A DNA stretch of 64,000 nucleotides from Blattabacterium cuenoti (lineage in GTDB: Bacteria > Bacteroidota > Bacteroidia > Flavobacteriales > Blattabacteriaceae). The notes beneath the pieces are model-generated. The model did not search any database. It had not been told where the DNA came from and worked only from the letters and a program-made list of their open reading frames with translations. Below, piece by piece: positions 33,022 to 55,711 of the stretch. The stretch lies in assembly GCF_014252095.1 (NCBI RefSeq), contig NZ_CP059210.1:224392-288391 (forward strand). Direction: 5' to 3'. The translations under genes were made by a program, and so were the position numbers. How positions within the stretch are numbered: position 1 is the first letter of the stretch; each line of letters starts with the position of its first letter.

Positions 33022-34107
33022 TTAATTACGATTTCTATTCCAATAAAGAAAAAGTGTAATCATTCCGAAAATTCCATTTGGAAGCCAAACAGATAAATAA
33101 GAAGGAAGATAATCTTTTGTAGAGTATACTTTGGATATTTCTGTAAAAAAAATATATGTAAATGCCAATATTATTCCAATGATGAAATTATGGGCTGTCC
33201 CCCCCCTTTTTGATGAGATAGATAATCCTAAAAGAGTCAATATAAAATTAGAAAAAGGATAACTCGTTCTTTGATAATATTCATTTAAGTGCGTATTGAT
33301 GTTACTATTTCCTCTCTTTTTTTCTCTATCAATAAACTTTTTCAGTTCAGAAATGGTCATTGTTTCTGCTATATATTCTTCTGGTAAAAGTTCTTCCGGA
33401 GTCATAGAAAAATTTTGAATTTTATAAATTCCTTTGAAAAAAATATCCTTATTCTTATTTAGATAGGTTTCGCTATAATTAGATAGGATATATATACGAT
33501 GTTTTTTGTACCAAAATATGTTTTTAGCCTTCAGAAGATATATCAATTTATTTCCATGGAACTTTTGATATATACAATCTTTTCCTATATTCTTCTTTCT
33601 GGAAAAATTTCGAATAAATAAATATTCATTATTTGAAATTTGGGTACTTATGGTCTGATTGTTTTCGTATTGATTTTTGTATCTTGAACTTAATAGATAT
33701 TGGTAATGAAATTTGTTTTTCATTTTATTAGCTAGGGGTAAAAAAGAATAATTAATTATTAAGGCTCCCATTCCTATAATGGAAGCTGAAATTAAATAAG
33801 GGATCGTTATCCTTTTAAAACTAATCCCACTTGCTAGAATAGCATTTATTTCTGAATATTTATTTAATCTAGATGTAAAAAAAATAATTGATAAAAAAAC
33901 GGAAATCGGGGAAAATGTATAGGCTAACCATATGGACCAAAAAGGATAATAATATATTAAAGCATCTTTGATGGATCCTTGATTGTTTTCCAATCTATGC
34001 ATTCTTTGAGAAAGATCTATAATAACAGAGATGATCTGTAATAGAATAGTAATCAATATAAAGGTAAAAAGAATATTACGAATGATATAACGGTCTAGTA
34101 TTTTCAT
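33022..34107 (-). CDS. LptF/LptG (YjgP/YjgQ) family permease
   Basis: A 361-residue inner-membrane permease of the family that, with LptB and LptC, extracts lipopolysaccharide from the inner membrane. ILDRYIIRNILFTFILITILLQ is the typical start. Three N-terminal helices, a periplasmic beta-rich domain (about 125-265) and three C-terminal helices fit the fold. SEINAILASGISFKRI is the conserved coupling helix. YPFSNFILTLLGLSISSKRGG matches the C-terminal signature. Whether it is LptG or LptF cannot be decided. Its partners are not in the window, and whether this organism makes full lipid A is not shown here. tgt lies 1 bp upstream. Confidence 0.87.
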   Translation of the reverse strand: MKILDRYIIRNILFTFILITILLQIISVIIDLSQRMHRLENNQGSIKDALIYYYPFWSIWLAYTFSPISVFLSIIFFTSRLNKYSEINAILASGISFKRITIPYLISASIIGMGALIINYSFLPLANKMKNKFHYQYLLSSRYKNQYENNQTISTQISNNEYLFIRNFSRKKNIGKDCIYQKFHGNKLIYLLKAKNIFWYKKHRIYILSNYSETYLNKNKDIFFKGIYKIQNFSMTPEELLPEEYIAETMTISELKKFIDREKKRGNSNINTHLNEYYQRTSYPFSNFILTLLGLSISSKRGGTAHNFIIGIILAFTYIFFTEISKVYSTKDYLPSYLSVWLPNGIFGMITLFLYWNRNRN

Positions 34108-52640: not shown

Positions 52641-53672
52641 ATGAAAAAAAAAATAACGAAAGCATTAGAAAATATATTTCTTAATAAAAGAAATATTATG
52701 GAATCTGGAATCATTAAAAAAATAGATGTATTTCAGGAGAAAATACGAATATATATAAGCTTATCCAATCCGACTATGCATATGAAAAAAAAATTAGAAA
52801 GAGATATCCACCAGGCTATAAAATATCAAAATGTAGATAAAAAAATACAAATAGAAATGAAATTAGATACTTCTGAAAAAAAAAAAACTGAAATAAAAAA
52901 TATTATAGCTATAGCTTCAGGAAAAGGAGGTGTGGGAAAATCCACAATAGCAACTAACATCGCGATTTCTTTAGTAGAAATGGGATTTCATGTAGGTTTA
53001 TTAGATGCAGATATTTATGGTCCTTCTATTCCATTAATGTTCAATTTAGAAGAAAATAAAACATCTTCCTGTATTGTCCAGAAGAATGGAACTTCTATCA
53101 TGAATCCTATCATTAGTTATGGAGTCAAAATTCTATCTTTAGGTTTTTTTTCAAAATCTGGACAGGCTATTGTTTGGAGGGGACCTATGGCGACTAAAGC
53201 CTTAAGACAATTTATTCATGAAACAGATTGGGGGTTATTAGATTTTCTAATTGTAGATTTACCGCCAGGAACAGGAGACATACATTTATCACTTGTGCAG
53301 GAAATACCATTAAAAGGAATTGTTATTGTTAGCACTCCTCAGAAAATTTCTTTATCGGATGTGCATAGATCTGTAGGAATGTTTCGTCTGAAATCCATTC
53401 ATGTCCCCATACTTGGAATCATAGAAAATATGTCTTTTTTTATTCCAAAAGATTCCAAAGAAAAATACTACTTATTTGGAAAAAATGGAGTAAAAAATTT
53501 TTCCAAAAAAATGAATATTTTTTTTCTTGGAGAGATTCCTCTGTTACCAGATATACGAGTCTCTTCCGATTTAGGGATTCCTGTCGTTTTACAAAACGAA
53601 TCTATAAGAAAAATTTTTATAAAAATTACGAAAAATATGGTAGATAATTTATCAATCGTCCCCCTTTCCTAG
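52641..53672 (+). CDS. Mrp/ApbC-family P-loop ATPase, Fe-S cluster carrier
   Basis: A 343-residue protein with an N-terminal MIP18-like (DUF59) domain (about 1-75) and a C-terminal MinD-type ATPase. The deviant Walker A is IASGKGGVGKSTIATNIA. LLDADIYGPSIPLMF, VWRGPMATKALRQF and DFLIVDLPPGTGDIHLSL are Mrp signatures. Family members carry iron-sulphur clusters to target proteins, which here could serve respiration. The CxxC that binds a cluster in E. coli-type Mrp, expected after GIIENMSFF, is absent: the sequence continues IPKDSKEKYYLFG. This may be normal in flavobacteria. It converges on the phosphorylase gene with a 30-bp spacer. Confidence 0.88.
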   Translation: MKKKITKALENIFLNKRNIMESGIIKKIDVFQEKIRIYISLSNPTMHMKKKLERDIHQAIKYQNVDKKIQIEMKLDTSEKKKTEIKNIIAIASGKGGVGKSTIATNIAISLVEMGFHVGLLDADIYGPSIPLMFNLEENKTSSCIVQKNGTSIMNPIISYGVKILSLGFFSKSGQAIVWRGPMATKALRQFIHETDWGLLDFLIVDLPPGTGDIHLSLVQEIPLKGIVIVSTPQKISLSDVHRSVGMFRLKSIHVPILGIIENMSFFIPKDSKEKYYLFGKNGVKNFSKKMNIFFLGEIPLLPDIRVSSDLGIPVVLQNESIRKIFIKITKNMVDNLSIVPLS

Positions 53673-53702: not shown

Positions 53703-54509
53703 TTAAAAACAAAGTTTGATAAATTCTTTGACAATCAATATTAAAAGAGGGATGGATTTTTCTGTTTCTTGAAAAAATGATTTCATCAAATGGATAGATT
53801 CAGAAGATTCCTTTTGTTCAGATAACCCCATCATAATGGATATAGCAAAAACTCGTAAATCCATACACCTAGCTGTAATTACGGATGAAACAATATTACT
53901 CATTCCAACACTATCCCCACCCATGGATCGTATCATCGCATATTCTGCATGGGTTTTATAATGAGGATAAGGATAAGCCACGTAGACCCCTTTTTGTATG
54001 ATAATATTATGATTCATGGCTATATTCTCTGCCATTTCAAGCATTTTTTGATCATATGGTTCTGTTATTCCCAAAAAATTATTCTTCATAAATTTTTTCA
54101 TATTAGGACTTTCTGGGAAAAGATTAATATGATCTTTTACGAACATTACATCCCCTGTTTTGTAGTTTGGATTCACTCCTCCAGAAATATTAATTAATAT
54201 CAATTTATCTATCCCCATATTTTTACACATTACTAGAGGAAAAGGAGTATATTCCTCTTCATCCTCATAATAAGAGGAAAAAGGTTCTATTAGAAATAGA
54301 ACCTTTTTCCCTTCTATATCTCCAGATATAAATTTTCCATATACTTTTGTAAAATTTGGAATTTCCTCGTAAGGAATGCATATAGGATTTTTTATTTCCT
54401 GGACCAATGGATGAAACTGATTTCCTAATAATATTATTCCAAATTCAGGTTTTTCTTTGATTTTTTTTTGTATATATTTTGTGGATTTTTCTTCTAAAGT
54501 CATTGACAT
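53703..54509 (-). CDS. Purine nucleoside phosphorylase homologue with altered active site
   Basis: The 268-residue protein aligns along its length with trimeric purine nucleoside phosphorylase: MGIDKLILINISGGVNPNY, TGDVMFVKDHINLF, HAEYAMIRSMGGDSVGMS and ITARCMDLRVFAIS. The active-site positions differ from the family. The GSGLG phosphate loop is GNQFH (29-33), GRFHxYEG is replaced around EPFSSYYED (75-83), NAAGG is NISGG (107-111), the FETPAE purine-binding loop is YKTHAE (184-189, Glu to Lys) and the SxxTN strand ends MMG (226-228). The frame is open, so the fold is probably made, but normal phosphorolysis of inosine or guanosine is doubtful. A 33-bp piece of the gene is repeated upstream of its start. 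Confidence 0.8.
   Translation of the reverse strand: MSMTLEEKSTKYIQKKIKEKPEFGIILLGNQFHPLVQEIKNPICIPYEEIPNFTKVYGKFISGDIEGKKVLFLIEPFSSYYEDEEEYTPFPLVMCKNMGIDKLILINISGGVNPNYKTGDVMFVKDHINLFPESPNMKKFMKNNFLGITEPYDQKMLEMAENIAMNHNIIIQKGVYVAYPYPHYKTHAEYAMIRSMGGDSVGMSNIVSSVITARCMDLRVFAISIMMGLSEQKESSESIHLMKSFFQETEKSIPLLILIVKEFIKLCF
54345..54377 (-). repeat. Source copy of a 33-bp repeat inside the phosphorylase gene
   Basis: This segment encodes residues about 45-55 (IPYEEIPNFTK) of the phosphorylase homologue. It recurs with one mismatch at 54538-54570, 193 bp away in the same orientation. Confidence 0.85.
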
Positions 54510-54537
54510 AAAAATTTTTTTTCTTTTCTATTTACAA

Positions 54538-54570
54538 TTTTGTAAAATTTTGAATTTCCTCGTAAGGAAT
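54538..54570 (-). repeat. Duplicated 33-bp phosphorylase fragment in the 5' spacer
   Basis: One mismatch from 54345-54377. Beyond an extra three bases the match goes on for about five more (GCATA). Read in the matching frame it gives CIIPYEEIQNFTK. It lies in the 176-bp spacer between murB and the phosphorylase gene (54510-54685), which holds no gene I can support. Confidence 0.85.
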
Positions 54571-54685: not shown

Positions 54686-55711
54686 CTATCGTATGAGATT
54701 CACTTCCCTTGATAAAACAAGGCCCAACTTATTTTTTATATTTTGAGTTATTTTTTCTGAAAAAGAATATATATCCATTCCACTAGCTCTTCCATAGTTT
54801 ACCAAAACTATAGGTTGTTTTTCATATACACCTACATCCCCCTGTTTTTTTCCTTTCCATCCTATAGTTTCAATCAATGAACTAGCAGATAGTTTCACTT
54901 GATTAGTAGAAATAGAATATCCTGTAATAGTTGGATATTTAGATTTTAATTTTTTAAAATCTAATATCCCTATTATTGGATTCATAAAAAAACTACCAGC
55001 ATTTCCTATTTTTTTTGGGTTTGGAAGTTTTCTATTTCTAATGTAAAGAATAGCCTTACTTAAATCATACATAGTTGGTTTTTTAATATTTCTTTTTTTT
55101 AATTCTTCTTGAATTTCAATGGAATAAATGTTCAATTTGTGATTTTTTTTTCTTAATAGAAAGGTAACAGATAAAACCAAAAATTTATTCTTGGAATGTG
55201 ACTGCTTAAAAAAAGAATGACGATATTCTAGTTGACATTCTTCTCGTGTGAAAATTCGTATTTTTCCCTTATTCGTTTCATATACTTGAACTTCCAATAA
55301 AGTATCCTTTATTTCTGCTCCATAGGCTCCAATATTTTGAATTGGAGCGGCTCCAACCGTACCAGGAATAAACGATAAATTCTCTAATCCACTGAAACCT
55401 TTTTTTATAGTCCAACCTACAAATTCATTCCAATTTTCTCCAGCAAAAGCTTGAACAACTGCTTGATTCTCGTTTTCATTCATCACTTTCTTTCCTTTGA
55501 TCCCAATTTTAATTACCATTCCTTGATAATAATTCTTTAAAAAAAGAATATTACTTCCATTTCCCAAAAAAAGTTTTGGAATGGATGGGTACTTACAAAA
55601 AATTTCTTGTATATCTTCTATACTTTTCACATTGACAAAATAATGTGCATAAACATTTATTCCAAATGTATTAAAATTTTTGAGAGAAAAATTTTTTTTA
55701 ATATCTAACAT
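54686..55711 (-). CDS. murB: UDP-N-acetylenolpyruvoylglucosamine reductase
   Basis: MurB reduces enolpyruvyl-UDP-GlcNAc to UDP-MurNAc with NADPH and FAD, feeding murC. The 341-residue protein has the FAD-binding segments NTFGINVYAHYFVNV, KLFLGNGSNILFLKN, GFSGLENLSFIPGTVGAAPIQNIGAYG and the substrate loop EYRHSFFKQ. KIGNAGSFFMNPII carries the catalytic Ser, and SASSLIETIGWKGKKQGDVGVYEKQPIVLVN the C-terminal domain. It is of the longer type I form, as in E. coli. Although a cell-wall gene, it is 5 kb outside the main mur cluster. Confidence 0.95.
   Translation of the reverse strand: MLDIKKNFSLKNFNTFGINVYAHYFVNVKSIEDIQEIFCKYPSIPKLFLGNGSNILFLKNYYQGMVIKIGIKGKKVMNENENQAVVQAFAGENWNEFVGWTIKKGFSGLENLSFIPGTVGAAPIQNIGAYGAEIKDTLLEVQVYETNKGKIRIFTREECQLEYRHSFFKQSHSKNKFLVLSVTFLLRKKNHKLNIYSIEIQEELKKRNIKKPTMYDLSKAILYIRNRKLPNPKKIGNAGSFFMNPIIGILDFKKLKSKYPTITGYSISTNQVKLSASSLIETIGWKGKKQGDVGVYEKQPIVLVNYGRASGMDIYSFSEKITQNIKNKLGLVLSREVNLIR

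Follow-up and report, generated by a model that had tools for sequence, protein, structure and literature searches.

In reduced symbiont genomes an enzyme is expected to be deleted once its reaction has become useless. Our analysis suggests that in the fat-body symbionts of cockroaches an old purine-salvage enzyme was turned into something else. The closest described system is the trimeric purine nucleoside phosphorylase (PNP; PunA), where Glu201 and Asn243 are crucial for catalysis (PMC9916683). The nucleoside-phosphorylase family has other uses than nucleoside salvage, as in the bark storage and WIN4 proteins of Populus (PMC3751785), and dead homologues of enzymes serve as scaffolds or regulators in pseudoenzymes at large. 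For Blattabacterium, a model of the Blattella germanica symbiont linked BLBBGE_377 with seven EC 2.4.2.1 reactions, each of which was blocked, and left the gene out as unresolved (PMC3819652). We take BLBBGE_377 of strain Bge as the orthologue of the gene described here, being the sole PF01048 match in that genome (G069); it was published as an EC 2.4.2.1 enzyme and not as a dead one. A search of the open-access literature for a purine nucleoside phosphorylase or pseudoenzyme of Blattabacterium gave no match, PMC3819652 treating the gene under other wording.

The window, a stretch of 64,000 nucleotides from the 630,985-bp genome of Blattabacterium cuenoti, contains an open reading frame of 268 codons at 53703-54509 on the minus strand with no internal stops. 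This pnp-like ORF lies between mrp, encoding a NUBPL/ApbC-like P-loop NTPase (52641-53672, plus strand, convergent to it), and murB (54686-55711, minus strand, upstream); both neighbours served as control genes. A 38-nt direct repeat of 92% identity occurs at 54340-54377 in the 5' part of the ORF and at 54533-54570 just upstream of the start codon. The ORF matched PF01048 (phosphorylase superfamily) above the cut-off with an E-value of 1.4e-24, and phmmer paired it over the full length with the solved PNP 4lna (E 3e-37). It reached none of the curated NCBIfam cut-offs for PNPs: the score was 180.7 bits for PRK08202 (E 4e-53, cut-off 218), 161.7 for TIGR01697 (cut-off 197.1) and 160.1 for TIGR01700 (cut-off 293). 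The top structural matches of an AF2 model built on four sequences (pLDDT 70.6, pTM 0.75) were exclusively trimeric PNPs with Foldseek and VIA-align, 4lna being the best with a Z of 29.3 and an rmsd of 2.5 over 250 residues. As a control, a real PNP was modelled with the same four sequences and showed low confidence mostly in the same loops. Therefore the model backs the fold only, loop confidence adds nothing, and disorder of the old catalytic loops was dropped as an interpretation. The ORF thus has the fold and the descent of trimeric PNPs. The first-pass annotation had recognized a PNP homologue from fold-level motifs along the full length; the PF01048 match and the end-to-end alignment with 4lna bear this out, and the predicted structure agrees.

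The active site was compared in 41 symbiont and 48 free-living Flavobacteriales copies with the residue list of PMC9916683. S33, R84, E201 and other active-site residues carry the numbering of calf/human PNP; K185, Y181, Q31 and segments such as 153-174 follow the ORF of the window. The six catalytic patterns G[ST]GL[GA], R[FIYLM]H, YEG, N[AS][AS][GA], [FYLS]ETxAE and GMST were each present in 45 to 48 of the 48 free-living copies and in none of the 41 symbiont copies. The former phosphate loop (residues 29-33; 54411-54425, minus strand) reads GNQFH where working PNPs have G[ST]GLG, with G34Q in 38 and L35F in 40 of the 41 copies. In the former phosphate/ribose loop (residues 75-83; 54261-54287, minus strand) EPFSSYYED stands for GRFHYYEG; this loop evolves fast and is shortened in the majority of copies. 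R84 was replaced by proline in most copies and H86 by serine or a gap, both residues being retained in none or almost none of the 41. NISGG (residues 107-111; 54177-54191, minus strand) retains N115 in all copies and has A116I in 35, while YPHYKTHAE (residues 181-189; 53943-53969, minus strand) shows G197Y and F200Y in all copies and E201K in 39, with T202 and the trimer-interface residue E205 retained in every one. H64 is deleted, S220 is changed to N or D, and the N/D243 position, where free-living Flavobacteriales have D, is G, M or a gap. The position of H257 is random among the symbionts, and the region that once held N243, H257 and E259 (residues 227-244; 53778-53831, minus strand) is unconserved and rich in indels. 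The symbiont copies thus have neither the phosphate site S/T33-R84-H86-S220 nor the purine-reading E201 and N243. REPLACEMENTS fixed in the symbionts at columns that are fixed for another residue in free-living copies are G34Q, L35F, G83E, S114I, G197Y and E201K.

All five replacements that had been read from the window alone, i.e. GNQFH, the lost GRFHxYEG, NISGG, YKTHAE and IMMG, are real. In NISGG, however, A116I is the change and the serine is not, since free-living Flavobacteriales have NASGG. The claim that nearly all active-site residues are lost holds for the decisive contacts but goes slightly too far for the others: N115 and G218 are retained in 41 of 41 copies, Y192 in 40, E89 in 37, F159 in 35 and M219 mostly (32). 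Misalignment, which would hide catalytic residues and had been named as a ground for dismissal, was excluded, as motif searches of all frame-correct copies turned up none in any of the 41. On the trimer-interface list of PMC9916683, N137 and E205 are present in 41 of 41 copies and F159 in 35, while divergence is seen in segment 87-91 and over much of 141-165. Around the old pocket most side chains became bigger (A116I, G197Y, G34Q, G36D, T221I), the volume changes adding up to +526 A^3, a sum over side chains and not a measure of the cavity. The bulkier side chains may thus partly fill the old cavity. A perfect 16-bp inverted repeat with a 3-nt loop (54276-54310) lies inside the ORF and encodes GKKVLFLIEPFSS in the former phosphate loop. 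It is private to the sublineage of the window (L001, L002 and L061), other copies having short imperfect versions at most, and looks like a quasi-palindrome-templated mutation.

Could the protein still be an ordinary active PNP with an active site remade from unusual residues? The fold, the full-length family match and the mostly retained N115, F159, Y192, M219 and E89 would speak for it. Yet R84, H86, E201, H64, H257 and N/D243 are missing in essentially all copies with no substitutes, among them the Glu and Asn held crucial in PMC9916683, and no genome encodes a base-salvage PRT, so that we consider an active PNP very unlikely. The PRT-domain proteins of the window's genome are three, named by sequence reading as Prs, PurF and a PyrE-PyrF fusion, and three were counted in each of the 49 genomes of the genus. 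A hypoxanthine, guanine or adenine PRT that would use the product of PNP was found in none of the 49. Hidden salvage enzymes or a second PNP were dismissed, with one PF01048 protein per gene-bearing genome and no PRT of the salvage type. A loss of catalysis fits a cell with de novo purines and no PRT to use the released base. The genomic setting has changed as well. In free-living Flavobacteriales punA overlaps lpxK (L129 4134-5958, L130 4537-6373; named by sequence reading), a linkage whose metabolic sense is not apparent. None of the 49 genomes of the genus contains lpxK, thus the ancestral punA-lpxK operon is broken, and inheritance with the operon was rejected. An LptF/G-type gene (33022-34107) is still present in the window despite the missing lpxK.

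The gene is widespread in the genus. Exactly one PF01048 protein was found in 41 of 49 genomes, without internal stops in any of them; 47 residues are invariant across the 41, and the copy of L061 is 95% identical to that of the window. Because all 41 copies are without the same motifs, the loss predates diversification: the catalytic motifs were gone before the 41 gene-bearing lineages split, and the loss is neither at an early stage nor specific to the window's genome. The lineages of Blattella and Periplaneta are about 140 Myr apart (PMC3287516). In the remaining eight genomes the gene is absent. Seven of these loci were read and in each the gene has been removed, mrp and murB abutting or having a short or featureless spacer. 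In G026 (L050 847-1501) this is an AT-rich non-coding stretch of about 650 bp with no recognisable gene remnant. A tree of mrp and murB resolved the seven losers into at least three independent losses, every one on a long branch and with a sister lineage that has an intact copy. Losses in at least three fast lineages mean that the gene is not essential everywhere. Within the 64-kb window no other gene had exactly the same loss pattern, and a partner did not emerge from this comparison. pnuC for a PnuC-type transporter (PF04973; 51308-51943, minus strand) is present in 39 of the 41 keepers, being absent from G015 and G021 which both retain the pnp-like gene, and in three of the eight losers. 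Its co-loss with the pnp-like gene is suggestive but is confounded by general genome reduction, and it was set aside. A LuxE-like acyl-protein synthetase gene (PF04443; 59081-60058) was lost in several fast lineages regardless of the pnp-like gene. The genomes of about 300 kb of symbionts from the same family have no PNP. The named genome collection yielded three PNPs only, all of them from Gastranaerophilales.

Early decay had been offered beside a changed role as an explanation of the lost residues. A simple codon model (IQ-TREE, MG+F3X4 with kappa fixed at 1 on one species tree) yielded an omega of 0.196 for the pnp-like gene compared with 0.204 for mrp and 0.195 for murB, the only two control genes used. 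Pairwise omega in close sisters was mostly 0.16 to 0.35, with 0.52 in the fast-evolving pair L030/L054. Neutral evolution simulated on the genus tree with the base composition of the genus and a conservative rate predicted a stop in 28 to 30 of 30 tips; none was observed. Purifying selection on the gene matches that on mrp and murB in strength. Taken together, the 41 intact copies, an omega like that of mrp and murB and the simulated stops reject decay, and recent or lineage-specific decay in particular is excluded by the 41 intact orthologues. The features of a pseudogene, i.e. broken frames or an omega near 1, are absent, while two features of a pseudoenzyme are present, missing catalytic residues and selection that acts on the protein. 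A relict under weak constraint, which does nothing important and is lost gradually, would account for the three or more losses, for several drifting loops and for a purine base that is useless in symbiont metabolism. It is strongly disfavoured and in our judgement decidedly improbable, given 41 of 41 intact copies, the same omega as in mrp and murB, stops expected nearly everywhere under neutrality, 47 invariant residues and the constraint gained at residues 153-174 (see below). The first-pass annotation was right in finding the frame open, and its alternative of a changed role is supported by several replacements at or near fixation in the 41 genomes and by rewired constraint. The orthologue comparison it had proposed, with conserved replacements pointing to a new function and scattered ones to decay, was run for omega as given above. 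By position, several replacements are conserved, which by its own criterion argues for a new role, and some positions (84, 86-90 and 243-259) are scattered.

To locate the constraint, site rates of 41 symbionts (LG+G4, likewise a simple model) were compared with those of 30 free-living relatives, mrp and murB of these free-living genomes being tested in the same way. The Spearman rho between symbiont and free-living rates was 0.04 for pnp and 0.56 for both mrp and murB, a difference with a Fisher z of about 6.9. On 220 gapless columns the value for pnp was 0.06, thus the low correlation is not an alignment artefact. Symbionts kept 40% of the free-living-invariant columns in pnp, but 83% and 85% in the controls. 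In rate percentile, active-site positions rose from the 14th among free-living PNPs to the 56th among symbionts. The earlier claim that changes concentrate at catalytic sites is clear by these rates; by counts it is a tendency only, with 11 of 21 free-living-conserved positions changed in the active site and 24 of 71 elsewhere (one-sided Fisher p 0.10). The scatter among symbionts at the ex-catalytic positions 84, 86-90 and 243-259 is what a release from catalysis would lead one to expect.

The strongest shift in the opposite direction was seen in a helix and strand at residues 153-174 (53988-54053, minus strand), which vary in working PNPs but hardly at all in symbionts and are a candidate for a new interface. 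The mean rate of residues 154-173 was 0.26 in symbionts and 1.79 in free-living relatives (permutation p < 0.0002), and their consensus is YDKKMLEIAENIAMNHNIIIQKG. Ten positions of 153-174 evolve fast in working PNPs and slowly in symbionts, their median in the latter being 0.38 compared with 0.84 elsewhere (p 0.008); because they evolve fast in working PNPs they are probably exposed. It might be argued that the conserved entity is DNA or RNA, either an overlapping antisense gene or an RNA element, since an ORF on the plus strand (53949-54197) overlaps the gene and the perfect 16-bp hairpin lies within it. Yet synonymous divergence is high where the protein is most conserved (pS 0.54 and pN 0.05 for residues 166-180), codons vary synonymously at invariant residues (I163 is ATA in 20, ATT in 19 and ATC in 2 copies) and the hairpin is confined to three genomes of the window's own sublineage. 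These codon data show that selection acts on the protein, and constraint on the nucleic acid is an extremely improbable explanation.

Two readings keep a ligand in the old site. A pocket rebuilt for a different small molecule, in a protein that is still an enzyme or ligand-binding, would use K185, Y184, Y181, Q31, F32 and N205 beside the retained N107, D126, H127 and Y176. Where purine and phosphate used to be contacted, replacements are fixed or nearly so, the pocket-side residues N115, Y192 and G218 are retained, and a lysine for the purine-reading glutamate would suit an anionic ligand. However, small residues have turned bulky (A116I, G197Y, G34Q, G36D), many indels and a lack of conservation mark the phosphate loop 73-96 and loop 229-252, and the strongest new constraint, at 153-174, is apart from the active site in sequence. 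On balance a rebuilt pocket is possible, if rather unlikely. Next to the uric-acid stores of the cockroach, one may also think of a sensor or regulatory subunit, where a rebuilt site of K185, Y181, Y184, Q31 and F32 would bind a purine-like or anionic metabolite and the 153-174 face would signal to a partner in nitrogen or purine metabolism; this version is unlikely.

We favor the view that the protein is probably a pseudoenzyme of ancient origin, retained not for phosphorolysis but likely for a binding or scaffold role, and that its gene was later deleted outright in at least three fast lineages. The phosphate-side (S33, R84, H86, S220), purine-side (E201, N243) and ribose-side (H64, H257) residues were lost before the 41 copies diverged; purine nucleoside phosphorolysis presumably ceased, and the old cavity was probably at least partly filled by A116I, G197Y, G34Q, G36D and T221I. 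Since then purifying selection has retained the frame, and the constraint has moved out of the pocket to other parts, chiefly residues 153-174 and several fixed replacements around the mouth of the old pocket. The protein would work by binding, its conserved helix face most likely being shown to another protein of the symbiont, as a scaffold or regulatory subunit that may still form a homotrimer. The most reduced lineages deleted the gene, so that there the role would be dispensable. In this case the single copy of an enzyme probably lost its catalysis, came under constraint elsewhere and was still retained across the genus, and conversion instead of deletion becomes testable with one protein. 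A standing annotation would be corrected as well, since the gene carries EC 2.4.2.1 in databases and in at least one genome-scale model, whose authors were unable to place it.

Compared with trimeric PNPs (PunA; PRK08202/TIGR01697; 4lna, 4ns1 and 8swt of Bacteroidota) the ORF has in common the fold, the family match, the full-length homology and the residues N115, D134-H135-N137, Y166, Y192, T202, E205 and G218. It differs from them in lacking the S/T33-R84-H86-S220 phosphate site, the E201/N(D)243 purine reader, H64 and H257, in scoring below the NCBIfam cut-offs, in a different conserved surface and in the missing linkage to lpxK. The Populus proteins are likewise family members with another use, but they are plant proteins of a multigene family that store nitrogen (PMC3751785), whereas the symbiont gene is single-copy. 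The single copy and the selective site constraint argue for specific binding. Like pseudoenzymes in general, the symbiont protein has the fold of an enzyme without its catalytic residues and is under purifying selection with a shifted constraint. Unlike these, it resides in a genome that has no active paralogue to regulate, the sole copy having been converted in place.
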